Shown: positions 29,928 to 64,000 of the stretch, in pieces
Position numbering within the stretch: the stretch's first letter is position 1
Layout: each line of letters opens with the position of its first letter
DNA from: Chondrosia reniformis
Lineage: Eukaryota > Porifera > Demospongiae > Chondrillida > Chondrillidae
Length of the DNA: 64,000 nt
Assembly: GCA_947172415.1 (NCBI GenBank)
Contig: OX359198.1
Location: 6,107,401 to 6,171,400, forward strand
Reading direction: 5' to 3'
Program-made: the position numbers and the translations under genes
The notes under the pieces: model-generated
What the model was told of the DNA's origin: nothing
Database searches by the model: none
Seen by the model: only the letters and a program-made list of their open reading frames with translations

Positions 29928-30836
29928 TCATTGAATGTAGATTTCCAAATCTTCAATTCCCATATTTTCAGTATCAGTTCCTTCATTAGTACACAGTCTA
30001 CCTTCAATATCATCCTTTACGTTAACTGTGAGTGTCCTGCAGAACCAAGGCATTCCACTGGAGGAGCAACAGCTACTGTCTGACCTACAGCCAAATCCAT
30101 CCCAGAGAGGGTCTCTCAGGTACCATTTAGGGTTACTCACCACTGGGGTGTTAGTATTGCTTCCACTCTCGCAGTAATAATGATCACTTACAAAATCTGG
30201 TTTGTAACCCTCTGTGCTAGAGCCACATGGACAGTTTGCTTTGTAGGTTGAGTCACCCTCTGCAAAACTAGCTGCATATGTCCAAACATGCTTACGAGGA
30301 GATCCATGTGTAATGCTCAATCCATCAACATAAACTTTATTGTTGATACTTGGATGAGGATTTATATTATTGATACTTGGTCCAAAGGCATCAGGACTTC
30401 CAAATTGATACCCTTTAGCCATGCCACAGATGTGATTATATTCTATTCCAAAAGTGGAGAAATGAGTAGAGGAACAACCAGCTTCTCGCAATTGTTCTTG
30501 CTTTACACAGAGTCTCTTCCACCCATCAGCTCTGATTTCTTGCCAATCTCTAGGGCAAGGTGATCCACCTCTTATATTAGCCACTCTGGTCCATCCTCCT
30601 TTGATTCCACAGCGGTTGACATTCATTTCACAATGTACCTGTCGGGTCACAATAGAATGTCCGTGTTTAGTTTGCATATAATAGTATCCAGTAAGACTGT
30701 TTGGATTGCACTCGTAAACCTGTTTACAGGACTTGGCAGGATTACCAGAAGTGGTCCCTATATCAGTGTCACATGCTTCAGTGACACTCCAGACGAGCAG
30801 GAGAGCCAAGATTAGGAATAGTCTCTGATTCTTCAT
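29928..30836 (-). CDS. Secreted fibrinogen-related, Cys-rich protein (single exon)
   Basis: A 302-aa intronless protein. Residues 1-22 are a signal peptide (MKNQR, then a Leu-rich core ending VTEAC). The rest shows a fibrinogen-like architecture seen in large sponge and cnidarian families: CKQVYECNPNSLTGYYY, GGWTRVANI, the HVWTYAASF block, CPCGSS, YYCESGS, DPLWDGFGC, a CC pair, PWFCRTL, then DDIEGRLC and a DLEIYIQ terminus. The many cysteines imply disulphides. It is probably an extracellular lectin-like or defence/recognition protein; the function is inference from the fold type. A TATAAA at 30889-30894 (minus sense) lies about 53 nt upstream of the ATG, so the untranslated leader is short. 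Two broken relatives lie 3-4 kb away on the same strand. Confidence 0.85.
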   Translation of the reverse strand: MKNQRLFLILALLLVWSVTEACDTDIGTTSGNPAKSCKQVYECNPNSLTGYYYMQTKHGHSIVTRQVHCEMNVNRCGIKGGWTRVANIRGGSPCPRDWQEIRADGWKRLCVKQEQLREAGCSSTHFSTFGIEYNHICGMAKGYQFGSPDAFGPSINNINPHPSINNKVYVDGLSITHGSPRKHVWTYAASFAEGDSTYKANCPCGSSTEGYKPDFVSDHYYCESGSNTNTPVVSNPKWYLRDPLWDGFGCRSDSSCCSSSGMPWFCRTLTVNVKDDIEGRLCTNEGTDTENMGIEDLEIYIQ

Positions 30837-30888
30837 AACTTGATTATTCTAAAGTAGCTGTTAGTGCACAGATCAGAAAAGTACTCAA

Positions 30889-40699: not shown

Positions 40700-43600
40700 T
40701 TAGTTTCCGGTGAGAGTGTAGTTGGTTGTAGCGTTGATTCTTTCTGCATCTTGGAAAATTAATTTCTCAACATCCAAGGTTGTTGTGTTGACTGTTTCAG
40801 TAAATTTCAAAGTTAGCTGTCCAGTGTTCAGGTCAAGATCAAAGCTCTGAAGTTCTGGCTTGGTGCTATCAGGGATGTAAGCTGACACAGGGATAGCTGA
40901 GTCCTGCTCAACAGGTATTAGTGGGTTAGTTGAGGTGTCTTGAGCTGCACTGCTGCTAAAATACAGGAATGCAGTAGAATTGTCAATGGCCAGAAGTGGT
41001 CTTCGCTTTATTTCATTTAAGTCATCAACAGTCAAAGTAATGTTTACAGATGTTTCTGAAATTTGAGTAACAATGGCAGATTTCAGTGTGTAGAATGCAG
41101 TTGTGGTACTTTGATTACCGCCATTCTGAAGTGTTATTTGATCTGGCATCACATCGGCAGCATAAATGGTTTCAGTAAAGGTCAAGATCAGAGAACCTTC
41201 ATTCATGTCTAAATCAAAACCTACAACCTCCGGTAGTGTGGCATCAACTTGGATCTCATAAACTGGTTCCGCTAGTGTGGAATTCAATGGATTTCCATTG
41301 TTATCCAAGACTGTGCCAGATTCAATACTGATAAATGTAGAATTTAAATCGTCAGCTAGTCCACTATCAAATAATTTGATGGTATTCAGATCATCTTCAG
41401 TTAGGTTGATATACAGTACAGACCTCTCAATTTGATCTACATCACCACCAGTTAGGGGAATGACACTTGAGGCATTGACTGGATCACTCAGCAAAGTGAT
41501 GCCAGTAATTTCTAGTGAGGAGCTGTTGACTGCTTCAGTAAAGTTTAGTATCAACTGTCCACTGTTGAGGTCTAAAGAGAATGATCTGAGTGCTGGGGAT
41601 GTGACATCAGAAAGATATAGACTAGCAGGCAATGGATTAATTGGTTCTCTTGGAATAACAGGATTGGCATTTGTGTCTGTCACTGCAGTTGGATCAAAAG
41701 TCAGGTAAGTTGAAATCAGATCCACTCCTAGGGAAAGTATGAGCTTAATATCATTAAGGTCATCTTCAGTGAGCTGAATTACCATCACTGGGTCATCTGG
41801 TGTTGTGACAGAACCACCAGTTAGCATTAAAGTTATGGTTGTGTTTAATAGAGTTGATGTTTGTTGAAGAGCAAACGATGTAAAGTTTACAGAAGAGACT
41901 AACACAGTTTCAGAGAATGTCAAGATTAGCTGACCTCTATCCAAGTCAAATGTAAAGTTGTTCAAGACTGGATTTCTTATATCTGGAACAAGAACAGATG
42001 CATTAATGCCATCTGATGCTTCAATTGGTACCACTCTGTTACCAGCTACGTCAGCAAGGAGATATTGAGAAAACTCAACAAATGTGTTTGAAGTGTTAGT
42101 AGCAAGGTCTAGTCTCTTCTTCAACTCATTCAGATCATACCGACTCAATCTTACAATAATCTCTGGATCATAGGTCATGTCAGCTGTGCTATCAGAGCTT
42201 AGCATATACGATGTTGACTCATTTTCTGGTAAGCTAAATAGAGATAGGGCTGTAACATTCACTGACATGCCATTGACTGTCTCAGTGAATGAGAGGAGAA
42301 GTAATTCCTGTTGATAGTCCAATATAAATGATCTGAGGAGAGGGCGTGTCCTATCCAGTAGGAGGGTGTTGACTGGAATGATGTCGCTGCTAAGAACTGG
42401 AGTGCCACTCTGATCACTTACTGTTGCATTGGAGATGTACAACCATGTGGTTGTGTTGTCTAACCCAATCAGATGAGCTTTAATTTCATTCAAATCAGAC
42501 TCAGTAAGTTGAATTCTGATAACGGTGTCATCAATCATTGACAATAGAGTACCATTGGTAAGCACATATGTGGAATTATCATTGATAGGCATTCGTTCTG
42601 AGAGCAATCCAACTCCAGTAACATCAACTGTGCGATAGTCTACAGTTTCTGAAAACTCTAGAGTCAAGATTCCAATATTCATGTCAAGGTCAAAGCTAAC
42701 AAGTGAAGGCCTAGTCGTGTCCTCAAAGAATCTGTTCACAGGCTCATGCCTGATGGGGTTCAGTGGCTGGCCATTCATGTCAGCAATGAAGGAACCTTCA
42801 AGGGAGATGAAGCTGTCAGATTCATTAGTGAAGAGACTAGCATTCTGCTTAATGATATTGAGATCATTTTCAAGGATATGAAGTCTGATTTGTGCCCCGT
42901 TTGTGCTGTTACTGAACACATTACTGAGTTGGAAAGTAACCGTACCATTTGGACCATTGGTGAGTGTCAGGCTGGTGAATTGCAGTGTTGAAACATCAAC
43001 CACTTCATCAAAATCAAGTGTTATGATACCTCTATTCAAGTCAAAGGACCAAAACTCCAAGCTTGGGGATACAAGATCCTCCACAAATCCACCAGCTGCC
43101 ACAGTCTGAGGTTCATTTCCATTGGGTACTGCAGCAGTATCCACAAAGGCATCAGATGTCAAAGTAATGTAGGTGTTGTCAAGGGAGGTGGCCAATTCTG
43201 GATTGACCTTCAAGCGATTCAAGTCCCTTCTACCAAGAGAAACTACCACAAGGACAGTGCACTGGTCCATTTGCACTGATAATGTGCAATTAGGTTGACT
43301 TACGTTGGAAGAGCTTGTAAGGGATACTGCATTGGAGGTGTCATTGGAGACTGAATGGATGGCGATCCTCTCCAAAATAACATCTTCTGGTAGGTAAGAA
43401 ACTGTCTCATTAAATATCAAAATGAGTTCATTAGAAGTTAAATCCAATGTGAAGTTCAACAATTCTGGTGAGTTGCTGTCTGGTATAAAGGTACTGGCAA
43501 TAAGAGCCATTTCTGGTGGTATCACAGTCAGATTGCGATCAGTCAAATCTTGAACACCAAACCACTCAGCAGTAATGAAAGTGTTGCTCATTAGAGTAGC

Positions 43601-46600
43601 CAGGTCTCTCACTGCCTTGATGGTGTTAAGGTTATCATCAGTCAGCTGAAGGGTGATGTATGGAGTATCATCCATGTTCAGTACATCACCTTGCTCAATG
43701 GGAACCATGAATGCTGTTGCTGACTGCTCTGAGAGAAGAGTGAACGCAGTTGAATCAAAAGTGGCAGAGTTGATGGCCTCAGTGAAGGTAAACACCAAAG
43801 TGCCTATGTTCATATCTAGTGAGAAAGCCTCAAGTTCAGGTGACGTGTCATCACCAATGACTTCAGTGGCTTGGACTGTGGTTCCGTTGTTATCTGCATT
43901 GGGATGGCTGAAAAGGTCTTCAACTGCACCTTCTCTGAATATCAGGTATGTGTTGCTGATAGATGTTGCAAGATTTCTCAAGGCTTTTAGGGAGTTGGTA
44001 TCCTGCCAAGACAGAGTGAACCTGAAACTTCTCTGAAGACGTGAAGGATCATACGAGCCATTGCTTAGGGCAAGCATCTCTGTGGAATTGTCAATATGTG
44101 GAGCATTGTGGAACTCTATCAGGGTCACATTAAGAGTCGAAAGGTCAACATTTTCACTAAACAATGCATCCAAGTATGCCTCGGTTCCGTTGATTGAGAA
44201 ATTGAATGCTTCTAGAACAGGTCTGGAGACATCGGGAATGTATTCACTGGGTTGATAAGCAATGTCAGCTCTGACTTGCATGGTGTTTAGATTGCCAGCC
44301 ATGTCTGAAAATACTTCAGCAGAATGGGTGAGATAGGTTGAATTTTCATCTCTAAAGTAACCATTAACATAGGATTCAACTCTAATTTCATCAAATCTGT
44401 CTTCAGTCAGTTCAATGGTTAAGATGTACCAATCCTCTGCCGGATTAACACTAGCAGAACCTCCTATGTCAAATTCAACACATTCACTATTAACTGGCAC
44501 TTGGCATAGCTCAAAGTCAGTAGAACTTAGTTGGATGGAGGAGTGGGCAACTGCTTCTGAGAAGGTTATAATGAGCACACCCCTGTTCATGTCAAATGTG
44601 AAGGCAGTAATGGTTGGTGGGGTGCCGTCAGGAGTGAAACCACCTGATTCTACAGGCTGTGCAACAATCTAAAGGAATAAACAATACACATAATCACAAA
44701 ACCTCAAAATGTTACAAAGACAGAGATGGTAAAATTAAATCCAAACTTTAGTTATGTATATTAACTTACTTCAGATGATGGATTGAAGTTCATGTCCAAA
44801 AGGGCTCCACTCTGCAACACAATGAATGTGTTATTTTCTCTGGTAGCAAGGTTGACACGGGTCTGTATCTCCACCACATCAAGGAATGCCAATTCTATGG
44901 AGACTACTCTACCGTCTTCAGGTGTCACTGTTCCATTTGTTAAAGTAAAGATGTCACTCTCCGTCAAACCACTGCTGTTGTCACTTGCTTGTAGAGTGAT
45001 GTTTGAAAGAACAACAGACGATGAACGCACTGGCTCATCAAAGGTTAAGGTTAGGAGATACATACTGTTCAAATCTAAGGTGTATGATAGTAATTGAGGA
45101 TCGGTTTCATCAGACTCAAAGATGGTCACTGGAAGTCCTTCATTCAGAGAAACATTCAGGAGTTCTAGTTCCAGTCCACTAAAGTCATTGACACCGGAGG
45201 AATTCCATCTGAGGAAGGTGTTGTTCTGATCCATTGCCAATCCTTCCATAAGCTTGATTGCATCTAGGTCCTCAGATGATAGAGTTAGATTCACTTCAGT
45301 AGCAAATCTAGAAGACACAGAATCATCTTCTACAGTAAATCTGTATTGAAGGTCAGGATCAGTAGCACTGCTTTGCAGCCAAAACTCAGTAATGTCTACC
45401 ATTCTCACAGCTTCAGAGAAGCTCAATGTTAGTAGACCTTCATCCATATCTAAATTGAATCCAGTCACCTCAGGAGGCGTTGTATCTGCTATGTAGATCA
45501 GATCTGTGGTGTCACTGATGGATGGAACAAGCTGGTTACCATTGGTATCTGTCAGGGTTTCATTACTAACAGAAATGAATGAGGTGTCCATTGAAACAAA
45601 CAGAAAGTCATCCTGCTTGATCAGATTCACATCATCTTCTGTGAGATTGAGTTGAATGGTAGTAAACCCAAGGGATATGAAATTCCCTCCAGAAGGTGAA
45701 AAGCCACTTAGAGAGTTGGGATCGTTCAAGAATACAAGTGTTGTTGGCTCAAAGGTGGAGTTGTCAATAGTTTCAGAGAATTGTAGTGTAACCAGCCCTT
45801 CATTCATATCAATGGTAACATTCCTCAACTGAGGGGACGTTCCATCGGGGACATAGGTTGAAGCTTGAAGTGGTACATCCATGGCTTCAACTGGGTTTCC
45901 AGACATGTCAAGTATGGCATCGTCTTCCAGGAAAAGGTATGTGGTTACATTGCTAACAGCCAACTGGAGGTCAGCCTTTATGGCATTTAGATCTTCATCT
46001 CCCAAGGTGAGGTTAAAGACTCTTGCATCACTACTAAAGGTCTGGCTGCTGACTGTAAGCATATAGTTGGATAGGGAAGAGTTGGAGTCAGAGAATAGTG
46101 TGAATTGAGTAATATTTAGGGAGCTAGTGTTGACTGCCTCACTGAATGTGAGCTGAATCATTCCAAGATTCAAATCAAACACGAAAGAAATCAGTTCTGG
46201 TGCCATAATATCAGGTGTGAAAGAATCTGCCATGATAGTCGTATTCTGGATACCAACACTACTCATGTCTAGGACAGCATTCGTCAAAAGAGAAATAAAT
46301 GTCGTATTGCTGTCCAAAGCCAGGGCAGTCCTGATCCTAATGCTATCTAAGTCATCTTGACTGACAGTGAGAAACACAGTAGTGCTGAAGTTCTCAGATG
46401 ATGAACTGGTTGATAGTATTACTTCCTGCCCATCCAAGTTGGTTACTATGGTGAGGACCACATCAAATGATGATGCATTGACTGTTTCATCAAATGTAAG
46501 GCTGATTGTTCCACTGTTCAGATCAAAATCAAAGATTTGTAAAATGGGTGGACTTGTATCACTCGTATAGTTTCTGGCTTGCAGGGCCATTACGGATGGA

Positions 46601-49600
46601 ACAGATTCAACTCTGTTGGAAAAAGTATCATTAACAGTAAACTCTGTTATAGACAGGTAAGTGTCATTGAGAGAGGTAGCAAGCTGGTAAAGTCTCTTTA
46701 TTTCATTGAGGTCTTCTCTAGACAATGATAGAAGGAGGATGGTATCATCTATCAAGGCGACAGTACCGTTGCTGAGCTGATAAAGGCTTGTGGAACCATT
46801 TTCAGAGTTTTGGAAGGTCAGTTGAGTTGGGTCAAGTGTGACAGCATCCATCACTTCATCAAAATACAGTGTAAGAAGTGCATCATTCAGGTTAAACTCA
46901 AAGAGCAGCAGATTAGGACGTGTCACATCCGGATACAATTGTGTAGCCATTAGACCATTTGAGGTATTGATGCTTCTGATGTTGTTACCATTCATGTCAC
47001 GGACCAGGAGCTCTGAGAACACTATGAAAGTAGTCTCAGTCTCTGTGGCAAGTGTCCTCCTTCTGTTGATAGCATTAATGTCCTCTTGGTCTAAGAAGAT
47101 CTTCACTTGTGTTGAATTTTCGGTAGTACTGTTGGTGGAGGATACCAACTGATAGGATTCTCCATTGTTGGAGCTATTCTGCAGAATAATTTCAGTGATC
47201 ACAAGTGATTCAGCATTCACAGTTTCATCAAAGGTTAGACAAAGTTGACCTGAATTCATGTCTAGTGTATAGGCAAGCAGTATGGGGGATGTTTCATCAG
47301 GGATTACTGTAGTAGCCTGTTCAGCAACATCTTCTCCAATGCCAACTACTGGATTAGGTTGTCCAAGATCGTAGATGGTACCACCTTCCATTGCTAAGAA
47401 TGTATCCAGTTGGTCAGTCCCCAGTTGTAAGTCTCTTTTCAGTTCATTCAGGTCATCAGTGTCCAATTTGATGGTGACGGAGAGGGCATCATGAGATCGA
47501 GATGCATTTCCTCCTCTCAGAGGAAGGAAGGACTCTGCCTCGGAGATGTTGCTGGCAGATTGTAAAGACAGCAGGGTTAGGTTGAGGGTTGCAAGATTCA
47601 CTGTATCAGTGAATGTCAGGATCAGCTCTCCCTCATCTAGGTCCAGGGTAAAGTTGGCAAGCTCCGGAGGTACATCATCAGGGATAAATTCAGCTACTTG
47701 GATAGCCTTTCCATCAGTAATTGGTACCACATCAACCAGACCAGTATCATCAACCAGATCAGCCCTCATTGTCAAATAGGTGTTGTTTCTGGTCTCAGCT
47801 AGACCAGCTGTTTCTTTCAATCTCAAGAGATCAAAATGATCGAGCTGGAGAGTGATGAGATAACCATTGTTGCTACCAGTGACGCTGAACCTAGATGGTG
47901 TGAACCTTAGACCTTGCCTGCTCTGCTCACTGTGTTGGAGAGTGAGTGCAGTAGCGTTGAATGACGAGGACAAGACCACATCATTGAAGGTGAAGTTCAT
48001 CACACCCAGATGAAGGTCAAGTGTAAAGTTGATCAGCGATGGTCTGGTAAGGTCAGGGATGTATGTGGTCACCTGAGAGAACAGAACAGGTTCAACTGGA
48101 CGGCCTGCAGTATCTGTAAATGCTTCACTGGAGAATGAGAGATATGTGTTTGATCTTTCAGTAGCAATCGTAGTGTCCTGTTTGATTTCAACTAAATCAT
48201 CAAATGTGAGGTTCAGTTTCACTTCCAAGCTGCCAACATTTGAAGTGGGAACCAAGTAGTCACAGCCTGTTAGACTGATCAGTGTAGCATTAGGAATGTT
48301 GCTACTGTGAATATCAATCTCACTACAGTTGATGCTGTCTATCTGAATAGGCTCATCAAAGATCAAAATCAGCATGTCTGCATCTAGATCCAATGTGTAG
48401 GCCTGTAATAGAGGTGATGTGGTGTCACCAAAGTATGCATACACTGGCAAGGCATTCTCAGTGGAGATCTCTATTACTGGGTTGGGAGCTGGCCTGAAGG
48501 TAGTATCTGTGATGGTGGTATTGAGGATTGATATAAACGTGTCATTTTCATTCTTGGCAAAACTGCTTGCTTTAAGGGCATCAACATCAACCTTATCTAA
48601 CATTACAATGATAACATGGCCATTGCTACTAGTCGTATAACTGTCACTACTTAGAGTGTACATCAATTCAGTGACATTTGTACTAGCTTCTCCTTGAATG
48701 GTTATTCCAGTTGGATCAAAAGATGTGATGCTCACAGATTCATTGAATGTTAGTACTAGACTACTGTTATCCATGTAGATGGTAAAGTTTACCAAGGCTG
48801 GAGGTGTGTTGTCTTCTCCATAGGATTCAACTTGGTATCCAAATGGCATTTCACTGCTGGCTGTAATGGGTATGCTAACCATATCTGTCACGAGGTCAGA
48901 AGTGAAACTGATGTAGCAGTCACCATGGTAAGTACAGAGTCTGTCTGAAGCTGCCAGTGACAAGCGGTCTCTATCAACCAATATGAACGAGATTTCAGTA
49001 CCATCTTCATCGGTTGTGAAGCCTCCGCGTAATGGCAGACTGTAGAGAGGATTATTATAGGTTTCCTGAATTGTGATTGCTGTAAAGTTGAGGGAGCTGG
49101 CATTGATGGTTTCAGAGAATGACAAAGCCAGAAGACCCTCTTGCACATCAATGAAGCTAAAGGACACCAGAGTAGGTGGCATTTCGTCTCTCATGAACCT
49201 GTCTACTTGTGTTGCATTTCCGTCAAACACACCAGCAATGTCCTGTCCCACCATATCCTGTACAGCACCATCGTCATACCGGAGATAACAGACTGATTCG
49301 TTGTAGCAGAATTGCAACCTTTTGATTTCATTTAGGTCATTTGGGTTCAGAAGTATAGTGATATTAGGTGAGTTGACAGTTTGTGGACTACTGTATTGGA
49401 TAGTGTAGTTTGTCATCATGTATTCTCTACCATCTTGGAGAACAAACTGATCCAAATTGATTGTTGAAACGTTTACAGTTTCGTTGAAATGGAGGATAAA
49501 GGTACCAGTGTTCATGTCCAAATCCCAAGACAGGAGGATAGGTCTATCAGCATCTGCCACAAACATGCTCACAGGAAGAGCTAATGAGATCGGAATGGCC

Positions 49601-52600
49601 ATAACTTGATTTCCACTGGTGTCTTCAACTGCAGTGCTAGTGATAGATAGGTAGGTTGTTTCATTGGAAGTGACCAATCTAATCAATTGCTTGATGGCAT
49701 TCTTATCGTCATTGGTTACTTGCAGGGTCAATGTGGTGTTGTCATCTGTTAGAACAGTGCCACTAGTGAGAGTATAGACTTGCAGATTAGGGTCAGATGG
49801 ATCACTGACAAATGTCACCGACTGTGGATCAAATGAGCTGGCATCAATAGTTTCAGAGAAATAGAGAACCAATAGCCTACTTCTACAGTTGAAGTCAAAA
49901 GACCACAGACTTGGTCGGTTACGGTCTCTCCTGTATCTGGTAGCGGGTACAATAGCCTCCAAGGCATCATTACCAGCCAAATCTTCAATGATATTAGCCT
50001 GGACAGCAATATAGGTATCATTGATGCTAGTGGCAAGCATTAGAAGCCTCTTCAGTTCATTCAACTCATCTTGATCAATCATCACTCCCACTTCTCTGCT
50101 GTTGGGTGTCTCAGATATATTACTGTTTGGAATGGCTAACATTTGGTCTGGCAACATCTCATCATTCTGTAATAGCAACAGGGAAATGTTGAAGGTGGAC
50201 ACAATGATGGGTTCACTGAATGTCAGAATGATTCGGCCTTGATTCATGTTAAGTGTAAACTCTGCAAGTTCTGGTGGTATGAGGTCAGCTGTGTTGCTAT
50301 CAGCAACAAGAGCTGGGAAGGTAATTTCCTCAATTTGATTGGGTGTGAAGGCCATATCACTCACAAAGGAGGTTGTGAGGGAGATAAAGGTAGTGTTGGC
50401 ATAGAAACCAAGGGGTTGTCTTTCAAGTAGTCTAATTTGCTCCAAATCAAAGTCTGTGACAGTGATAGTGATTTCAGTGGAATCTAGTGTGGTTATATTG
50501 CCACCAGTTAAGGTATAACCGTTGGAGGCATTTGGAGACACTCTTAGTTCTAACATTTCTGGATCAACCGTGCTAGCACGAACTGTTTCACTGAATGTGA
50601 GTATTATCTGGAGTGGTGGCAGGTAATTATCCATGTGAATTCTGAAAGATTCTAGTACTGGATCTGTGCTATCAGTAGTGAATGTGGTGACGTTAGTGGG
50701 TGAACTGGCCTCAATTTCTACAACAGGGTTTGAAGAGGTATCATTGATAGTAATTGCTGTCATTTCCAAGAAGGTAGTGGATTCATTGACAGCAAGGAAT
50801 TCCAATTGCTTGATACGATTGAGGTCACTTTCTCCTATCTGAACAATTATTGTTGGGCCATCAGGAGAGAGGGTGGAACTGACATTTGTTAGTTGATGGG
50901 AAGAGCTGGGACTGGTAAGTGTGATTCCAGTTACCTCAAGTGTGTCTGAGAGAACAGTCTCACTGAATCTCAATGTTAACACTCCACTGTCCATATCAAG
51001 GTCAAACTGCCTAAGTCTGGGACTGATGGTATCCTCAGTGAAGTTAGCAACTTGAAGAGCCTCAGATCGATCCCTTTCTACAACAATGTTGTAGTTAGTG
51101 TCGCTGATAGTCATATTTGTGATAGAGATGAAGGTGTTTTCCCTGCCTGTGGCCAGTGATGTCAGATTTTTGATCATGTTTATGTCATCAAAGACTATTT
51201 GGAACTGTATGATTGGTGAGTGATCATTAGTCAATAGTATGCCATCTCTGAGAGTAAATATCTCAGACAGCTCCATATCCAATGAACTCTGGAAACTGAT
51301 TTCAGAAAACTGAATGCTGGAATAATTGACCGTTTCAGAGAAGAACAGTGTTAAAGTATCATTTCCAATATCTAGATTGAAATTTTCCAATTCAGGTCTA
51401 GTTTCATCAGCTGTAAAGTTATCAGCAGGCTGGTTAACAACCGGTTCAATTGGATTACCAAAATTGAGATCTCTTACAGCTCCACGATTGACTATCAGGT
51501 AAGTTGTATCTCTTGATACAGCGAGGTCAGTAATCTGTTTTAGACTGTTAGAGTCATCTAGTGTGATATTGATGGCAATTACAAGGCTGTTGGTATTAGA
51601 GACATCACCACCAGTCAGCTGTACTCTTGCTGGTCCTATAGTGAATAAAAAATATAAATAACTAATACTGAAATTAAAAATATCATTTTATACTCACCAA
51701 TAGAAGTACTTGCAAATGCAAAATATGTTGGCAAGACAGATGTAGCATTCACGACTTCTTGGAATGTTAGGAATAGAGTTGGACCATCCATGTCAAGATG
51801 GAAAGACACAATCACTGGTGGTTCAGTGTCACTGCTTAAAGCAGCAACCATTTCAGCATTATCTGCAGGAATTGGTATAATGTTATTCATAGCCATATCT
51901 AAGACAAACTCAACTGTATGATAAAGGTAAGTGTTCATTTCTTGAGTTCCAAGTGACGTCATGCTCTTCAGTAGGTTAACATCATCCACAGTTAGACTGA
52001 AAGTGATTATGCGACCTGTGAAATTAGGATTTGGTGTTCCTCCAGACAGAGTTATCTGTTCTAGATTTCCACTTCCAATTGCACTCTGCATATTCTGGAG
52101 TGTGACCTGAGTAATATTCAGTGATGTAACATCAACTGCCTCGCTGAAGGTGAAGACAATTGTGAAAGAATCAAGATTCAGGACAAATGACTCAAGATAA
52201 GGATCTGTGGAATCTGCTATGTAACTGACTGCTTGTCTGGCATTTCTGCGTACTATAGAAGTTACCGGATTGCCAGATACATCCTGGATGGCATCAGCTT
52301 GCAGTGCAAGGTAGGTATTGTTAATGTCAGTGGCCAATCTAGGAAGCATCTTGATTTCATTTAAATCATCTTGTCGCAGATAGAGTGTCAGTCTGTCACC
52401 TCTGGAACTGTTGGTGAAAACACTAGCAGTTGTAAGAGAGTAGGCACTTTCAGTGTCATCACCAATTTGGTCTCCTTGGAGCCTGATAAATCTTACATCC
52501 AGAGTAGTTGGATCAATTACGTCATCATATAGCATCTCTATGACTCCAGTGTTCATATCCAGGGTATAGTTAAGAAGATTTGGACTGGTAGTGTCAGGTG

Positions 52601-55600
52601 TGAACCTGATGGCCATAAGATTAGATCTCTCCAGGACATCATTACCTGCTTGGTCTTTGATGGCTCCCTCAGTCAGGTTAACAAAAGACGTGGCTGTGCT
52701 AACAGCGAGATCTAAGTTCAATTTTAGGCTTCTGATGTCCTCCCTGTTGAGTGTTATTCTAATTTCCCGTTTATCAGTGGTTGGGTCTGACTCATAAACT
52801 GCTGAGCCACCTGTCAGTGTAAGGCTATCAGCTGATCCATCATGGATGGTGATCAGGGAATAGTTAATGGAATTGATGTTCATTGGCTCGTTGAAGGACA
52901 ACACCAGTGATCCACTGTCCAAGTCCATTTCTGAGAAAATAACAAGATCTGGCTGGATAGAGTCTGCAGTGAAATTTCTAACTTGCAATGCATTGTTAAC
53001 ATCTCTTGCCATAGCATTATTGCCATCTCGATCTTGGATGAGATCAGATGTGAAGGAAATGAAGGTATCATTCACAGATGTAGCCAGGCCGTCAAGAGCC
53101 TTGATGATTACTTCATCTTCAGGATCAGGGATGAAACTCAGGATGGGTGAATACAAGTTAGATCTGTCAGCTTGCCTGTTGGACAGCTTGAAGGTTACAC
53201 TAGCATTTGCAGTGTCAGAATGGAAAGAAATTTGTCGGGCATCAAATGTCGGGTAGTCAATTGTCTCATCAAAGACCAAAGTGATATTGTTGGTAGTCAA
53301 ATCAACATCAAAATACAACAGAATTGGGGGAGAACTGTCCTGTATAAATTCCAGAGGAATTTCATTTGGATTAGCAGTTGAACTACCAGTTACTGGTCTA
53401 ATGGTTGACCCAAAGGTGTCTCTCGCAAAATCTGCACCAAGTCTTATGAAACAATCAGTTATTCCATTGGTACACAGCCCTACAGTCGACTTAATTCTGT
53501 TCAGATCTTCAGTTAATATTCTTATAGTCACATTAGTGCTATCTTCTGATAGCACCTCACCTCCTGTAAGCTGCACTGACTGAGTACTACTGCCTGTTGC
53601 AGGGAAGTCATCCAATCTCAATTCAGTCAAATTGACCGATGAGGCTGTAATGGTTTCTTCAAAAATAAGTGTAAGTCTTCCATCATCAAGGTCCAGAAGT
53701 TGGAAGAAGTCTAGACCAGTAGGGTTGAGATCAGGGACGTATGGGTCAGCAGTGCGTGGCATAGCAGATGTGATAGGGTTAACAGAATTACCACTTGTGT
53801 CATTAACAAGTGCACTGGAGAAAGTCAAGAGACAGTCTGATTCTTCAGTACACAGATTTCTTAGTCTTGCAATCTCGTTCTTGTCTGTCACACTTAGAGT
53901 GAATGTAACTGTAGGGGTATTGAAGCTGGTTATATCATCACCTTGGGTCAGGGTGAAATTGGTTGAGTTAATAAAGTTTGCTTGGGAAATGAAGGTAATT
54001 TCCCTCAAATCTAGAGTGGTGATGTCAATACTTTCACTGAAATACAGTACAACTCTTCCATCAGTAAAATTGACCGAGAACCTCAGGAGTTGTGGACTAA
54101 TGGTATCAGGTATGACTTCAAAAGCTCTGAGAGCTTCATTCCTTGTGTGAGGCACCAGCAAGTTGTAATTCTTATCTTGAACAGTATTTCTTGTTGCTGT
54201 CAGGAAGGTGTCATTTCTTGTGGTAGCAAGAGTTATAATGGCTTTGATGGCGTTGATGTCATCCCAACTGAGATCAATTAATATCACTGAAAACTCAGTT
54301 CTTGTGAAGTTACTGCTTGCTGATATGGCAAATGAAGTGGTATCATCATCAGTGGCATTCTGCAGTGCTATCTCTGTAACATTAAAGGTATTAATGTCTA
54401 CTGTTTCAGAGAAATAGAGTGTAAGGGTGGCATTTTCTAAATTGAGGACAAATTGATCAAGCGTTGGGTTGGTTACATCAGGAATAACTTCAGTGACTGG
54501 TAGAGCATCAGATGTAGTCCTCTCAATGATGTAATTCCTTCCCATGTCAGCTAGAGCTAGATGGCTAAATGAAAGGAAGGTATCATTCACATTAGTAGCA
54601 AGATCTATGCGATCTTTCAGTGCATTTAGATCGGCCAGTCCAATTGTGACATTCAGCACAATTCCATCAGCACTGGTTGTCATACTAGCTTGTGTCAGGT
54701 TCAGAGGGAGTGACAGAGAGGTAAGATTGGCCATACTTTGGAACTGTAGTAGTTGAGACATCAGAGAGGAAGCATTCATGGTCTCACTGAATAACATTAT
54801 CATGAATCCTCCATCAATGGAAATGTTAAACTCCAGTAATTCAGGTCTAGTCAGATCATAGAAGAACCTATCCACCTTTCTTGGACTGTTAAATTCCAGA
54901 TTTGGGTTACCACTGGTATCTCTGAGTGTGTCAAATGTAAGATAAATGTACGAAGTTTGATTGTTAGAAGCAACCAGTATGTTTTTCTTAATTTCATTGA
55001 TGTCATCATCATGGATAAGGACCTCAATTTCCAGATCATTGACTTGGGTTATATTACTGAAAGACGAGAGGTTATAGGTGTTATTCTCATTCAACATTGT
55101 TCCACCAACCAACTGAATCTGTTCAACTATCACAGTGGAAGCATCAATGACATCATTAAATGTAATCAATAGATAGTGTCTGTTCATGTTCAAAATAAAG
55201 CTGACATATCCCGGAGGTGTGGTATCAAGGATGACATTAATGGCCTGTGTTGCATTATCTGAGAGTATTGCTGCAACGGCTCTACCGACATAGTCTTTTG
55301 TTGTATCGTTAGTCAGAGAGATGAAGGTAGAACTAATGTTATATGCAAGTCCTATTGGTCTCTTGATGTTGTGGAGATCCTGCAAAGAAGGTGTCAGATT
55401 ATATACAGGCATGAAGTCCTCGTAGGCAGGATATATCTCTCCATCGTACTGTAGAGTGTGAGTGAGGCTGCTGTTGCTGTTGGGACCACTTTGGATGGTG
55501 ATTTCAGTGGATTTAAAGATTGGTTGCAGTTCGATAACTTCAGTAAAAGTGAGCGTAAAGACTCCTTCATTGCGATCAAAAGTGAAGTCTACCAATTCTG

Positions 55601-58600
55601 GAGAGCTTGTGTCTCCAGTATAGTTGGAAGCTTGTAGTGCAGCTCTTTCTGAAATGGGAACAAGCAGATTTCCAGCAGTGTCAGAAGTGCTGGGGATGGC
55701 TGACAGTAAGAATGTAGTGTGCATATCAATGGCCAGTTGGCGAGAGAGTTTGATGGAGTTGAGATCATTTGGAGAGAGGTAGATTGTTACAAAAGGAGAG
55801 TCTTCATCAGATACTGTACTATCAGTTAGTTGGTATACCATTGTAATAGATGACCTTGATCTTCTGTTCTGGAGGGCAAAGGTTTCAGCTGAAACACTTG
55901 AAGAGTTGATGGTCTCAGAGAAAGTAAGCAAAATCAAGCCACTTTCTATATCTATTGCATAAGACATCAACATTGGTGGTGTTGAATCTGGAGTATAGAT
56001 GGACACCATTTCAGCATACCCTTCAGGTGTACCGTTCAGTAAATGATCTCGCAAGTCTTCGGCAACACCATCAGGTATCTCCAAGAAAGTTGTTAGGTTG
56101 GAGATGGCAAGCTGAAGATCTGCCTTGAGAGCATTCATGTCATCAAAACTGAGTTGGATTGTAATTATGTCTCCGGCTAAGGATTGGGTGAGGTCACCTT
56201 CAGTCAAGGTAAAGTTATTGGGAGCACTTGCTGTATCAGGTGTTGAGTAGAGAGTCAGGTTAGAAATTTGAAGAGATGAAAGTCTGATGGCTTCAGTGAA
56301 GTACAAAGTCAGGGTTGCCATGTCCATGTTCAGGTCAAAGGCCGAGAAGGAAGGTGGCGTAGTATCATCAACAAATTGAGATACAGGGATAGCCTTGCTA
56401 TCTGTGATGGCAAGGACATCAACGACCCTAGAATCATCAATTCCATCAGCTCTCATTCTTAAGTAGGTGTCATTGGCTGTGTTTGCGAGACCATCAGTTG
56501 ACTTGAGTCTAAAGAGATCAACCGGACTGATATTCACAACAATTACATGTCCATCAGCACTGTTTGTGAAAGAGGAATCGCTAAACTGGAATTCAACTGA
56601 AGCTTCAGATGCATCCTGAATGTAGAAGGCAGTTGAATCTAATGTTCCTGAGAGTGCTACATCATTAAAGGATAGTGTCAGTTCTCCAATGTCAATATCC
56701 AGATCAAATGAGGAGAGCTCAAGTGGTGTCACATCTTCAACAATCCTTCCATTGCAAAGAGGCTCTTGAGCTTCCACTAGATTGTTGGTTGTGTCAGCTG
56801 CAATGCCACCAGTAGCACCTAAGCAGGTCATCTCCTCAGTCTGTCCGATAACGGAGGTAGTCTTCAATTCAGTGATGTCGGGATTGGTGATGCTGATGCT
56901 GACAATGTCAGATCCAAGGAACCTGTTTTCTGGTGAAATAGCTACCACTCCTCCATCAAGATTAATATTCTCGGAGATATTTCCAATAGTTGTAAAGAAT
57001 ATAGCACTAGCGTCAAAAGATGACAGTAGTACTACCTCGGAGAATGTCAGTGTAAGGATGTCACTGTTAAGATCAAGAGTATAGCCAGTGATATTTGGAG
57101 AGAGGGTGTCATTGAAATATTCGGAGACAAGAAGTGCCATCTCAGAAGAGATTGCATGTACAGCATTTGGCTGGAAGGCAACATCTCTGAATGCATTTGG
57201 TTCTAAACTGATAAATGAATCAGTGACTGTCTTGAAATAAGGCATACTTTGTATGTTAAAGAGGTCATTTTGATTGAGTGTAAAGGAGATCACTTCAGAA
57301 ACATCTTCACTGGGTGTGCCACCAGTCAATCTGTACCTATCACTTGTATTATACTGACCCTGAAGGTATACAGCAGTTAGATCTATAGACCTTACATCAA
57401 TTGCTTCAGTGAAAGTTAGGACAAAGGTCCCCGTGTTAGCATCAAAAGTGAAACTCAACAGTTGTGGTGGGTTGTAATCAGGAGCAAACTCTAGGGCAAT
57501 CAGTCCTGGAGCATCCCCCGGAAGTTGAGGAATGACTGGGTTGCCTGCCATGTCCATAATGAGGCCTGCAGTGTAAGTTATGTAACAGGATCCCTGTCCA
57601 TCACAGAGTTCTTCAAGAATCTGAATCTGTATCAAATCTCTTGTAGATAGCTGTATTTCTAGAACTGTGCCATCAGAGGTCAAAGGTTGGCTGTCATTCA
57701 GGGTGTAGTTAGCTAGTGGATCAACATCATACAAAGACTGCAAAGTCAGTGCTTGAACATTGAGTGATGATACATTGACTGTTTCATTGAAAATGAGGGT
57801 CAAAGTGGCACTGCTTAAATTAAAGTTGGCTAATTCTAAAACATCAGGTGGATAACAATCAGGTATATAGTCTAGAGCTGGCTGGCTCTCATTCTGTAAG
57901 ACTGCATCGTTACTTAATCTGGACATATCCTGCACAGCATCTACTCCAAGACTTAGCCGACAGGTTGTCGAGGAGGTACAGAGTCCATATGCCATTAGTC
58001 TAGATATTTCATTGAAGTCAACAGCAGAGAGACTAACAACTATAGTAGCCTGGTTGGGATCGGAAGATGAACTTGAGGACAGTCTGTGGTTAACAGACGG
58101 ATCCATGTTGGAACCGTACAGTGTTAGTTCTGATACATTCAGTGTAGACACATTAACTGTTTCAGCAAAAGACAAGATGACTATCTGATCACACAAGTCA
58201 ATTGAAAATCCATCAAGACGGGGAGGAATCGTATCATTTCCAACTGAGGTAGCCATTAAGGCCATTGATGGAGGAATAGTGAATACCGCATTTCCACTTA
58301 AATCTTGGATGGTAAAATGAGCAATGGCAAGGTAGCTGTCAGAAGTATCAGTAAAAAGTTCTGAGTGTGACTTTAGATAGTTCAGATCTGGAGTGGATAA
58401 TGTCCACTCCACCAGTGGTCCAAGGTCAGCAGTAGTAGAACCTCCACTCAGTGTCAGTGAATATTCAGGCTTTCTTTCTGCATTCTGTAGAGTGATGCCT
58501 GTGATGTCAATAGTATCCTTGTCCACTGATTCATCAAATGTAAGCGACAGCACTCCTGTGGTCAAAACAAAGGAGAAGGAGACAAGAGTAGGTCTTTGCC

Positions 58601-61600
58601 TATCTCTAATATAGTTGGAAATTTGTGCTGTCAGTTGGTTTGAAGGATTCCTGGCTGTATCCTGAACTGTGCCAGCCCGCAGTTGTATGAAAGTATCATT
58701 GATGGAAGTTGCAAGATCTATGTTAGCAGTTACAATGTTAAAGTCATCAGGTGTCAGATACACTATGACCTCATCCATAGTGTCACCATAGGTAACGTTA
58801 TTATTACCTCTGAGGGTGTGGCTAATAAAGGTAACCAAGGCATTTTGAAGAGTGATATATGTTGGTCTTACTGACTCCAGAATGAGGTCTTCAGACCATT
58901 TCAACCTTATAAGGCCTGTATTCATGTCAAGGGTGGAGTACACTAATTCTGGAGCTGCAAGGTCTGCTGCAAAAGTTGATACTTGGATTCCAGAGAGGAG
59001 GGGTCTTAATCTGTTACCACTTGAATCATTTACAGATCCTTCACTCACAGTTAGGTAGGAATCATTCTCAGATTGAAGGAACATAGCACCATCTCTTATA
59101 TATTCAAAATCATTATCATTTACCTCAATCTGCAGCAAATTGTGATAGAGAAGCATGGGAGTATCACCAGTCAGTGTCCTGCGCGATGTACCTGATTTAT
59201 CTGATTGTAGGGTAAAACCAGTTACATCAACAGACATCAGGTTGATAGTCTCACTAAATTGTACTGTAAGCAGCATTGGTCTTGTATTGCCCTCAGACAT
59301 TGATAAATTAAAGGCCACTACATATGGAGATGTTGTATCAGGAGTAAAACTGAGAACTGCTTTTGAAAACGTGATGTTTAAGTCTTCAACATCATTGCCA
59401 TTCATGTCATCAATCAGTAACTCAGTATTGCTAATGAAGGTAGTGTCCTCAGCATCAGCAAGACCAGGTGTTCCTTTTAGAATATCTAAGTCAAATGTAG
59501 TCAAGTCTACTACAATTACTGGACCATCTCCTGACTGAGTGCTTCCTCCCGTTAAGGTGTAGTTTATTATTCCAAGCTGTCCATCAGAGAAAGTTATCTG
59601 GCTAGCATCCAAAGTGTCATTATCTACAGATTCACTGAAATACAAAGTCAGTGTGCCATTGTTGAGATCAAAATCACTGTCAACCAACTCAGGACGGATG
59701 TCATCAGAAATGAAGGATGTTGCTTGGACTGGATCAGTAAAGTTGACTTCAGTAATGTAGTTGTTACTCAAGTCAGCAATAGTGAAATTTTGAATGGATA
59801 TCCAACTGTTGTCAGTAGAAGTCATAAGACCCGTCAAGACCTTGATTGTATTAAGGTCATCCAGGGCAAATGATATTGTGGTAATGTTTCTGATAGTGGA
59901 TACTATGTCTCCATTGGTAAGCTGATAGAATAGGGTACCATTTGGTCCATTTAATATGGTAATTCCAGTAAAGTTCAGGCTTGCAGAGTTAACAGTTTCT
60001 GAAAATGTTAATGACAGTGTGTCGTCATGGAGATCAACAGAAAAGGTCAATAATGTTGGTTGTGTGGTATCAGGGTACACATTGGTGGCTGGATAAGCAT
60101 CTAAATTGCTGATTTCAGCAATGACGTTAGAAGCAGAATCTGCAACAGCTCCTTCTTGGAAAATGAGCCAAGTGTTACTTTCAGTTGTTCCTAGATCTGT
60201 CATTTGCTTCAATGTATCCAGGTCAAATTCTGTCAGCATCAATCTCACTACTGCATCATGCATGCTCACCATTGTGTCATTAACAGTTGCTCTTCCACCG
60301 GTCAGGGTGTGGTTGGCATATGGAGCCATTGGTTGACTAATCACCGTGAAGTAGCTTGGGTTCAGTGAGGAAATGTTAACTGATTCTGAAAAGTAGAAAA
60401 TGATTTCACCTTCATTCAAGTCAAGCTCAAATCTCTGCAATGTTGGACTGGTAATGTCAACAGAATGACTAACAGCTGGTCTAGCGTCATTACTGTTAAT
60501 TGGCACGATATAGTTATCGCTCATATCAGCAACAGTGAAATTCTCCACTGCAATAAAGGTATTGCTAACACTTGTACCCAGGTCCAACCTCTCCTTGATA
60601 CTGTTGAGATCGTTAACAGTTAGGTTTAGCATGAGGGAGGCTGATGGTTGGGAGCTGACTAGAGTGCCGCCAGTTAAGGTGTGAGATTGAGTATAGCTTG
60701 ACATCCTGTTCACAAGGGTTATACCTGTTGGGTTTAGAGATGAGGAGTTGACAGTTTCTGAGAATAACATTGACAAAATGCCATCGTTGCCAGAAATATC
60801 TAACACAAATTCTCTCAACTCAGGGTTAGTTTCATCATAAATAAATCTAGCTACTTGCGGACCAACTACAGATGTACCAGACGGTCCTTGTCCCTCGGGA
60901 TCAAGTACAGCTAATTGCGTAACAGTGAGATAGGTGTCATTCATATTTGTGGCAAGGGTTGGAATGGCTTTGATATCATTAAGGTCTGGCAATGGTATGT
61001 AGTAATCAAGTGAGAAGCCGACAGAGGTATTTGAGGACCCCCTTGTAAAGGTAAAGGTCTCCGCATCATTAATGTTGGAAGCATTTTGAAGTGTCACTTG
61101 AGATGGCATGAATGATGTTGGGATGATTACATCATTGAATGTCAACTGCAGCAGGCCAATATTCATGTCAAGGTTAAAGCTAAGCAATAACGGAGCAAGA
61201 CGATCTGGTATGTAGAGCCTGACATTGATACCATTTCCAGTGGAGATTACTGGATTTCCACTGGTGTCATCAATAGCTGTATCGTCTACAAACAGGTAGG
61301 TAGAACTCTGGTCTACGGCCAATTCAAGATCTATCTTCAATGCCGCTACATCCTGGTTGGAGAGTTGAATGACCAACTCAAGAGTAGTATCACCATAGAC
61401 TGCGTTGCCGCCAGTCAATGTGTAATTAGTTCCTCCACTCATCTCAATCTGTACTCTAAACAGTCCTGGAGTGTATGATGGAAGATATACTGGTTCATTG
61501 AACACTATAGTGATGGTGTTGTCAGCTAAGGAGAGCTCTTTAAACTCAACAACAGTGGGTCTTGTTTGATCCATAACATACTCTGAGGCATTCAGTGCAG

Positions 61601-64000
61601 ACATGTTAGCATCTCTAGCTGCAACTTGGACATCAAACACATCCATTATAAGATCTCTTGATATTGACAACCAGGTGGTGCTGAGAGATGTGGCTATGTC
61701 AAGGGAAGATTTCAGAACTATCTGATCCTGGGGACCAATCTGAATTTCTATCTCATTGCTTATTTCAGTTGTGAGGGAAGTAGAGTCTCCAATTAAACTG
61801 ACATTAAATGTTCCTTCTTCATCAGACAGGAATGTCAGAGCAGATGTTATGGCAGATGGATTGACAACTTCACTAAATGTTAGGACAAGAATGTTTGAAT
61901 CCAAATTAATTCTAAATGCAGTAAGTTCAGGTGGTGTAGTGTCTAGAATGACAGTACTGAACTCTGTATCTCTATAGGGGCCATCCATTACCGGGACAAG
62001 GGGATTACCCGCTGCATCAGTTATAAATCCTCCACCTAGCCTTATCCAGCAATCAGCTCTACCTCGACAAAGGGAATTCACATCGTATTCTGTCTTTAGG
62101 GTATTTAAATCATCTTCACTTAATTGTAAAACGAGTCGTGGTCCATTTGTAGAGTTTGGATAGCCGCCAGTGAGTGGAACAATGGTGGATCTCAAGATGA
62201 CATCTTCATGCCAGTTTGTTAGATTGCCTGCTGTTGGGGATAGATTACTGACATCAACAGTTTCAGAAAAAAGCATAACAAGCTGCCCACTATTGAAATT
62301 AAGTATTTCAAATTCCACCAATGAAGGCATTGTTGAATCCACAGTGTAATTGTCAACCTGTAAGAGAATATTCGGTGGCACATTAAATCCATTTCCAACT
62401 GTATCAGACACTAGGCTATCTGTGAAGTTGATGTAACAGGAGCTAAAATCTCTACAAATAGGCAAAGCGTTAAGCTGATTGGTGTCTTCTTGAGATAGAG
62501 CAATTCTCCACACTTCAGTGTTAATCATTGGTAGAATAGCATTTTGAATGGTAAACTGCACTGAAGGATCACTGGGATCAAACAGAACGATCTGACTCAG
62601 GTTAAAGGTGGCCATATTCACTGGCTCTGAGAACAGAAGTGTCAGTACATTGGTGTTCAGATCCAGGTAGGTCATTCTAAGTTCAACATCAGTTGTATCA
62701 GCTGTGTAATTGTCAACAATTGGTGCTTCTTCAGGTAGAATTGGGAAGCTAGGATTTTCTACATTATCCTGGACCAAATCCTCAGCAATGGAAAGGTAAG
62801 TTGTTGTATTACTGACAGCTAACTCCTGGTTTGCCTTGATACTATTCAGGTCATATTCTGTGAGCTCTAAAATGACTACTGAGAAATCAGAAATTCTGAA
62901 ATTCTGGTAGTCACTAAGTGTGACGCTGTTATTTGTGCTGTTTGGTGTACTGATGATTGTTATTTTAGTAGGATCAAAGGAAGCTTCATCAACTGTTTCA
63001 GAGAAGCTTAGAGTCAAAACTCCATTGTCGAGGTCAAGATCAAAATTTTCAAGCCTTGGTCCACTTCTGTCATTCTCAAAGAATGAAGCAGGAATGGGCA
63101 CATTTATCTCTGGAGCAGGATTGCGATACACATCTCTTACAGTGTCATATTCATATCTGATAAAGGTGGATGATCCATTAGTAGCCAAGTTTACATCGGC
63201 CTTGAGTGCATTTAAATCTCTCAGATGGAGGTCAAGCACAACCAGTGACCTTGGCGAGAGGTCAGCAGGAAGAGTGGTATATTCAAGAGCGAATCTGGAT
63301 GCAAAGATGTCTATACTGGCTACTATCTCTATCAGATTGATCTTAAGAGTGGAAGTGTTGACTGCCTCATTAAACTGCAAAGCGAGCTGTGCAGAATCAA
63401 GGCTAAGGTTGAATGATTCCAACATTGGTCCACTCTGATCTCTGATGAGTACTCCAGGGAATGGCTGGCTAGATGCATTGACTGGATTGGAGCTGACGTC
63501 AAAAACTGCAGCTTCAGCAAGCTGAATGAAGGTGTCCAGTTGTGACGTGGCAACACCCATCTCAATATCTATAGCTTCCTTATCATCAATGGTGATGTTA
63601 ATGGTAATGATATAGTCTGTTTCACTAGCAACAACAGATGAAGACAATGAAACTGAAGCATTTCCTGATGTGTCTGTCAAAGAAATGAGGCTAGGTGATA
63701 TGAATGAGACATTGATAACTTCATCAAATGTAAGATGGAGCTGAGGAGCATCCAAATCTAACTGAAAGTTTTCAAGGAGTGGGGCTGTTGTATCAGAAAT
63801 GATTCTGGAAGCTGGTTGAGCACCAGTGGATGGTATAGCAATCAACTTGTTGTTAGAAGTATCGCTAGCAAAATCCTCACTGGCACTAAAGTATGTATTG
63901 CTGTGGTGTACTCCTAGATTGGAGCATCTCTGAATGGCAAACAAATCTGCTGATACTAAGGGAAGAGTGGCAAGATTCAGGTCATAGATTGGAGTACCTC
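40700..64000 (-). CDS. Giant modular surface/matrix-type repeat protein (3' part, incomplete at 5' end)
   Basis: One gene, 5' end beyond the window. Exons: >64000-51698, 51635-44770, 44668-40700, with 62-bp and 101-bp GT-AG introns; all phases agree, giving 7,711 residues here. It is built of about 62 modules of ~122 aa plus a partial first one: 33 starting in exon 1, 18 in exon 2, 11 in exon 3. Module pattern: PxLxxFxLDLNxG, then LxLTFSETVNxSSL, a YTLTGG turn, LTxDDLNxIK, LATxxNTFI, and DxSGNPV leading to the next module. The FSE strand and DxxGN end resemble bacterial Ig-like (Big_5/SwmB-type) domains. The LDxNxG loop could bind calcium and the NxS/T after FSETV is a recurrent glycosylation site; both are inference. 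There are few cysteines, and no membrane segment is visible in this part. The last module stops half-way at YTLTGN. It is not a Calx-beta repeat. Function unknown. Confidence 0.9.
44669..44769 (-). other. Intron 2 of giant gene (101 bp, phase 0)
   Basis: Donor GAA|GTAAGT, acceptor CCTTTAG|ATT. It joins NPSSE to IVAQPVESGG, at the linker between modules 52 and 53. The flanking exons are open in the same register only with this intron removed. Confidence 0.92.
45480..62710 (-). repeat. Higher-order repeat: two tandem 23-module blocks
   Basis: Counting modules from the 5' edge, M5-M27 (about 62710-54110) correspond in order to M28-M50 (about 54110-45480). Clear pairs include M7/M30 (IKxxLDxATS then ARDxN), M8/M31 (LTGGxAVY and LKxxLxLAV), M11/M34 (LKQxTDL...GAVxD), M14/M37 (both have an extended first hairpin before FSET and an xxIR segment), M15/M38 (RDRxRPxL), and M21/M44 (MRADxxDD then VDVxxITDxKAI). 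The pairs hold at offset 23, so a block of about 8.6 kb was duplicated. Identity is modest, so the event is old. Confidence 0.78.
51636..51697 (-). other. Intron 1 (within window) of giant gene (62 bp, phase 1)
   Basis: Donor ATTG|GTGAGT, acceptor CACTATAG|GAC. It splits module 34 just before its LTGGD turn (...FASTSIG-PARVQLTGGD). Very short, as in compact sponge genes. Confidence 0.93.

Follow-up and report, generated by a model that had tools for sequence, protein, structure and literature searches.

Overall organization of the locus

The stretch analysed here (the window) comprises 64,000 nucleotides from the sponge Chondrosia reniformis, positions 6107401-6171400 of contig C10, and carries the 3′ part of a giant minus-strand gene, here termed gene A, that encodes a tandem array of immunoglobulin-like (Ig-like) β-sandwich modules of bacterial type. 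Modelled in full, gene A predicts a chain of 41,432 residues in which the modules are ordered in a 23-module super-repeat. C10 is 7,657,449 bases long in a genome of 117,379,552 bases on 15 contigs; the published genome note describes an assembly of 117.37 Mb with 14 chromosomes and a mitochondrial genome, chromosome 10 measuring 7.66 Mb (PMC12181767). All coordinates are window positions and values above 64000 carry on along the same scale (C10 position = 6107400 + coordinate).

Within the window, gene A appears as three minus-strand frames of great length: 51636-63998 (still open where the window ends), 44761-51687 and 40700-44668. They correspond to the 3′ portion of exon 7, exon 8 and exon 9. 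Spliced, this part gives 7,712 codons including the stop in a single frame, within which 62 modules start. An earlier sequence-only reading had proposed one gene of at least 7,711 codons, with ~62 modules in three huge exons sharing one register; our count agrees, and the unity of the gene is supported by GT-AG introns that keep the frame and by split modules that read through them. The proposed extent holds as a lower bound, the three exons being part of nine in a gene ~5.4 times larger. That reading had missed the putative signal peptide, the super-repeat, a twin (gene B) and a third copy (gene C).

Gene A extends 102.8 kb past the right edge of the window. Joining the 220 kb upstream of its in-window part to the window gave 284 kb with an N count of 0, in which stop-to-stop frames of 7,368, 1,505, 6,389, 280 and 22,295 codons continue the gene. 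The full model has a coding sequence (CDS) of 124,299 bp over a genomic span of 126,115 bp, with eight introns of 62-420 bp, all GT-AG; the frame is kept at every junction and no exon contains a stop. Its features are

166745-166814 (-), exon 1, putative signal peptide MGVKLKLLLLIQMVFLNVVSHAQ
99636-166324 (-), exon 2, 66,689 bp, uninterrupted by stops
98490-99311 (-), exon 3, by-eye spliced model
79201-98366 (-), exon 4, by-eye spliced model
78683-78904 (-), exon 5, by-eye spliced model
74064-78542 (-), exon 6, by-eye spliced model
51698-73713 (to 64000 in the window) (-), exon 7, 22,016 bp in all, open frame
51636-51697 (-), intron 7, 62 bp, GTGAGT...CTATAG; the split module is full length (profile 1-120) once spliced
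44770-51635 (-), exon 8, 6,866 bp, open frame
44669-44769 (-), intron 8, 101 bp, GTAAGT...CTTTAG; the interrupted module continues across the splice (profile 1-117)
40700-44668 (-), exon 9 (last), 1,322 codons plus stop TAA, CTTTAG acceptor

Six of the introns interrupt modules that become complete, or almost complete, after splicing, which supports the junctions. Introns 2, 4, 6 and 7 (four of the eight) lie at nearly the same module position (residues 42-51), a coincidence that may reflect a favoured insertion site or ancient exon borders. Since the longest open frame in any of the six frames was at most 207 codons among 20 mononucleotide shuffles of exon 2, the openness of this exon is not due to chance. 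To our knowledge, the longest human coding exon is that of MUC16 (21.7 kb), and exon 2 (66.7 kb) is about three times as long. No exact direct repeat in the CDS exceeds 23 nt, so that the assembly is unlikely to have collapsed or expanded repeats here. A profile search of the minus strand between 20001 and 40700 found no further module match beyond gene A's own tail.

The calculated product has a mass of 4,495 kDa, a pI of 4.05 and 180 cysteines, with 12.7% Asp plus Glu compared with 4.1% Lys plus Arg. Its N-terminus is hydrophobic, and the other listed hydrophobic 19-residue windows fall within modules. The putative signal peptides of genes A and B were judged by eye; the hydrophobicity profile favours that of gene A, whereas no 19-residue window of gene B reaches the 1.6 threshold.

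Module structure and comparison with known families

A profile built from the modules themselves matched gene A 338 times, 333 of these matches spanning at least 100 of 124 positions, and covered 99.2% of the protein; in gene B, 130 matches (124 of this span) covered 98.9%. Ordered without gaps, gene A contains 335 modules, the final one shortened, and gene B contains 126 plus a leading half module. In an alignment of 107 modules, identity with the first one ranges from 19 to 38% and positions D1, P5, F23 and D101 are conserved at 90% or above; the best pairwise identity between modules is at most ~49%.

The structure prediction that the sequence-only reading had suggested as a check gave a β-sandwich for the single module (AlphaFold, pLDDT 96.4, pTM 0.88). 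For a two-module stretch (46561-47298, minus strand) the pLDDT was 97.3 and the pTM 0.88, the latter suggesting that neighbouring modules hold a defined relative orientation. The constant DDLNxIK segment is predicted to form an α-helix (residues 71-79) inside the β-sandwich, the sole helix of four or more residues in the single-module prediction.

Among the matches listed, the predicted fold is nearest to SbsC, an S-layer protein of bacteria (PDB codes 4uic, 4uj6 and 2ra1; domain at residues ~258-358), with similarity spanning most of the module but an identity of only 11-13%. The solved SbsC constructs have about six domains, whereas gene A has 335, is found in an animal and shows a super-repeat without counterpart in SbsC. 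The Big_5 family (PF13205, SbsA-type) shares with the module the same start strand and the same D-x-x-G-N-P end, the DDLNxIK helix being an addition in the sponge module. Across the entire genome, where seven candidates were scored, Big_5 itself had no match at E ≤ 1e-3, and only 17 of 107 gene A modules matched it at E ≤ 1 (best 6.8e-4), short of the curated Pfam cut-off. In a profile-profile alignment with hhalign, the module profile and Big_5 domains (seven of the ten Big_5 places found in genome G001) aligned over 96 columns with a probability of 92.5 (E 4.9e-7 for a single comparison); a reversed control scored 0.08 and 20 column shuffles at most 0.36. The bacterial Ig-like look noted earlier is thus upheld by the nearest fold and by a remote profile link. 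The DDLNxIK segment, described there as unrecognised, can now be assigned to a predicted helix with an equivalent in a bacterial module (see below).

The Pfam scans covered exon 9, 107 modules, 773 N-terminal residues of exon 2 and 4,100 residues of exon 7. In these parts there was no Ig, FnIII or kinase match, and Calx-beta was likewise without a match, in agreement with the earlier statement that the module is not a Calx-beta repeat. The sponge aggregation factor (MAFp3/p4) is defined by Calx-beta domains.

Several candidates were rejected. In exon 9, DUF960 (9.6e-4) and Sad1_UNC (0.0034) fell under the Pfam cut-off, as did RabGGT_insert and CopC at the start of gene B (2,075 residues); exon 9 had no match in NCBIfam. 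A comparison of 107 gene A modules (out of 335) with NCBIfam gave 36 families, and the 25 shown, each from one module (best 8.3e-4), were judged to be chance. In the exon 7 part (4,100 residues), Glyco_hydro_5_C reached a score of 22.9 (cut-off 22) over 44 residues without any individual stretch passing, and EstA_Ig_like one of 22.0 (cut-off 26.7); we read both scores as the common β-sandwich and not as enzyme kinship. The EstA Ig-like domain (PF18435; PDB code 3doh) is a single domain on an enzyme, unlike the gene A array. The best match of the module profile among PDB sequences (8gsy, E 0.018) was not significant, and the pattern GAYYTNAAYNNNATHAAR proved unspecific (at least 278 matches compared with at least 149 for the backward control) and was not used.

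Super-repeat of gene A

Inter-module similarity in gene A peaks at offsets of 23, 46, 69, 92, 115, 138, 161, 184, 207, 230 and 253 modules. The period score is 11.49 at 23 and 10.48 at 46, the next being 1.17 at 57, and the maximum among 200 module-order shuffles (six periods each) was 1.0. The same best register was obtained in 27 of 27 segments along the gene, in many cases accompanied by a smaller peak at 11-12, and the register is continuous across exon boundaries. Classes 0, 1, 3 and 4 find their best other class in 12, 13, 15 and 16, respectively, so that the 23-module unit seems to stem from an ancient 12+11 duplication. Pairs of cysteines of the type CxxxxxC (4-7 residues between) are present in 13/15, 14/15, 14/14 and 14/14 modules of classes 0, 1, 12 and 13, a total of 55 of 58 compared with 8 of 276 elsewhere, these classes having been picked after looking. 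The modules of gene A are not interchangeable, being ordered in a 23-module super-repeat in which positions 0, 1, 12 and 13 nearly always carry disulfide-type cysteine pairs.

Related genes in the sponge genome

Gene B is a giant divergent twin of gene A, and gene C is a third copy:

167776-215724 (one exon), probably followed by a tiny last one at 215936-215967 (+), gene B, 15,993 residues
~C10:7,521,800-7,566,800 (-), gene C, 1.2 Mb away, one 15,845-codon frame (loci L002, L028-L031, L033, L034, L037 and L041)

The start of gene B, with a signal-peptide-like sequence MRLWYWLLLMLFTSKWTAVLAQ, lies on the opposite strand at a distance of 961 bp from gene A. The period of gene B is 18/36 (scores of 5.66 and 6.2; null maximum 3.65). 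Classes 13-16 of gene A recur in gene B, whole or in part, in blocks starting at modules 25, 43, 61, 79 and 97; this block common to both genes thus repeats about every 18 modules, and five of the nine cysteine pairs of gene B fall within it. In gene C, 22,654 bases read in five stretches were open throughout and contained 55 modules, 41 of which are nearest to gene B and 14 to gene A. Two module queries against the genome returned 574 and 427 candidates, and all of the best 150 of each belong to the loci of genes A, B and C (scored matches of the second query reach down to E 4e-3).

Relatives in bacteria

Apart from the collections genome_contigs and viral_contigs, the search for relatives covered one bacterial phylum and one sponge genome. 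With a one-module query, no relative was confirmed in genome_contigs (56 stretches) or viral_contigs (12 stretches), and a three-module alignment found none in viral_contigs (101 stretches). In genome_contigs (109 stretches) the latter gave a sole locus, L045, a short match flanked by stops on both sides that we consider to be chance; the genome carrying it led to the bacterial phylum searched, judged from the L045 record to be Planctomycetota. Five of 392 genomes of this phylum match the module profile at E ≤ 1e-3 (2/149 and 2/199 in overlapping draws). The strongest match, in genome G005, is full length (E 5.9e-15) and lies in a 1,654-codon frame that holds one complete module and an adjoining partial one. 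The complete module includes the equivalent of the DDLNxIK helix and is 34% identical to module 61 of gene B over 120 residues (E 7.7e-11); Pfam recognised nothing in 1,119 residues of this frame. The G005 protein shares the whole module, helix included, but differs from the sponge proteins in forming no array. A second genome gave a weaker match (G215, 2.4e-8), and those of G009, G316 and G370 (3.9e-4 to 9.4e-4) may reflect general Big-type similarity. Bacteria thus possess the complete module, although few genomes of the phylum searched carry it. That sponges acquired the module by transfer is a fair hypothesis, for which these data allow neither a direction nor a date to be claimed.

Proposed function

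Building on what was computed here (frames, splice sites, continuity, modules, super-repeat, predicted fold, the Big_5 link and genes B and C), we propose that gene A encodes one secreted chain of ~41,400 residues with ~335 SbsC/Big_5-like modules that serves as an extracellular scaffold analogous to titin, a reading to which we assign a probability of about 0.6. A single mRNA would span all exons, and its product would consist of a putative signal peptide followed by ~335 tandem β-sandwich modules with nothing else recognisable (~4.5 MDa before glycosylation). The confident two-module prediction and the short linkers point to a stiff or semi-stiff rod, which with a titin-like rise of ~4 nm would be ~1.3 µm long, each super-repeat measuring ~90 nm and each half unit ~45 nm. 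The chain would be acidic and N-glycosylated: sequons number 931 compared with 679 for the reversed motif in gene A and 439 compared with 294 in gene B, counts that together with the signal-peptide-like starts point to an extracellular location. Ca2+ may plausibly bind at the aspartates conserved at the two ends of the module, given also the strongly negative charge of the chain; Ca2+ binding is known for some S-layer proteins. A periodic chain suggests a periodic partner, as the thick filament is for titin, and the super-repeats would present a binding site every 11-12 modules. The scaffold would have evolved independently of titin from a bacterial-type module and would act as a ruler, tether or spring in the collagenous mesohyl or cell coat. 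An adhesion or matrix role is plausible; the collagenous mesohyl, which in Chondrosia stiffens upon manipulation (PMC5867623), is a conjecture as the site of action.

Titin and the gene A product are both giant chains of β-sandwich modules with a higher-order super-repeat; the 11-domain unit of titin measures ~43 nm at 3.9 nm per domain (PMC10665226). Titin, however, resides within muscle cells, has a mass of 3,200-3,800 kDa in skeletal muscle (PMC12198301) and is composed of Ig and FnIII domains with a C-terminal kinase, whereas the gene A product has a signal-peptide-like start, is larger by calculated mass and ends in half a module.

Several points weigh against the scaffold proposal. The splice sites of gene A, the start codons of genes A and B and both signal peptides are by-eye choices in a model drawn from genomic sequence alone. 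Gene A terminates mid-module (40700-40760, in class 12, ahead of its cysteine pair). The super-repeat is blurred: the best match of a module is in its own class for 121 of 334 modules (14.5 by chance), in eight of 23 classes another class on average outscores the own class, and mean identity is 31.1% within classes and 29.0% between them. The sequon enrichment is only moderate, and NP[ST], which is not glycosylatable, occurs 40 times in gene A. The parts scanned revealed no collagen-binding, transmembrane or other anchoring domain, and the rod length and mechanics are extrapolated from titin, the sponge modules being slightly larger.

The same array could instead give rise to several shorter secreted proteins, through separate messages, block-skipping splice forms or cleavage after synthesis. 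A primary transcript of 126 kb with 124 kb of coding sequence would be extreme, and three furin-type RXKR/RXRR sites (residues 155, 17343 and 38388) could permit cleavage; we nevertheless regard this as unlikely, since every junction is in frame, six introns interrupt modules and the 23-module register runs unbroken over the exon boundaries. A better but still doubtful alternative is that the protein would serve in the cell coat or in aggregation, linking cells or retaining or keeping out bacteria, and would work like the sponge aggregation factor from other modules, its divergent modules providing many specificities. Such a role would suit the strong divergence of the modules and the RGD motifs (five in A, two in B), C. 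reniformis is rich in symbionts (PMC12181767) and bacterial surface giants such as BAP are likewise Ig-like arrays (PMC4647330). The super-repeat and fixed cysteine pairs, however, favour a periodic partner over diversified sites, and the parts scanned yielded no recognisable lectin, Calx-beta or other binding domain. An assembly artefact, contamination with bacterial DNA or gene decay, which the bacterial-type module and the mid-module end might bring to mind, is highly improbable: the 284 kb contain no N, direct repeats in the CDS of 23 nt or less make misjoining unlikely, the consensus quality of the assembly is 69.8 (PMC12181767), the array has GT-AG introns and lies in a 7.66 Mb chromosome next to animal-type genes (by eye), and all exons of gene A are stop-free.

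Taking the extracellular scaffold further, we tentatively suggest that gene A encodes the largest predicted animal protein, a ranking for which titin is the sole comparison: a secreted sponge `extracellular titin', that evolved independently out of a module with bacterial ancestry and in which the 12+11 super-repeat might space binding sites ~45 nm apart on a rod of more than 1 µm and thereby tune the stiffness of a changeable collagen matrix. We consider this extended version possible rather than probable. Outside animals, PKZILLA-1 (~45,000 residues) is larger than the gene A product. PKZILLA is an algal giant protein (PMC12300183), and some Omnitrophota proteins are larger than eukaryotic ones according to a survey of huge proteins, the main text of which does not contain `porifera' (PMC11573180). 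The main text of the Chondrosia genome note contains neither `titin' nor `intron' (PMC12181767). Literature searches found no paper joining SbsA Ig-like domains, or S-layer and SbsC, with sponges, and broader searches gave nothing on such a protein among the matches listed.

An animal without muscle is thus predicted to make a protein of 41,432 residues and 4,495 kDa as well as two more giant chains, each of ~16,000 residues. The modules that build them form a family that escapes recognition as such at the thresholds of Pfam. If the proposal is correct, giant super-repeat rods arose independently outside the sarcomere, an Ig module of bacterial type was adopted for building the animal extracellular space and the stiffening mesohyl of Chondrosia gains a molecular candidate. 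For annotation, it is relevant that short-read methods easily fragment or miss such a gene.

Genomic neighbourhood

The remaining features near the array are

6414-7834, minisatellite, 28 bp units, 50.6 copies, 95% matches
27936-28253 (+), short reverse-transcriptase-like fragment (by eye)
29931-30848 (-), 306-codon frame that looks secreted and weakly matches the fibrillar collagen C-terminal domain (5.5e-4, under the cut-off)
~34800-37800 (+), AAA-ATPase open frames, NSF-like by eye, convergent with gene A
216710-217538 (+), 226924-228476 (-) and 231304-233062 (-), three alike SRCR-plus-transmembrane genes (by eye; loci L018-L019)
267912-283280, kelch-like and other frames (by eye; loci L023-L024)

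The three SRCR-plus-transmembrane genes adjoin gene B, one being inverted relative to the other two. The kelch-like block is present three times in tandem, its first two copies being nearly identical.

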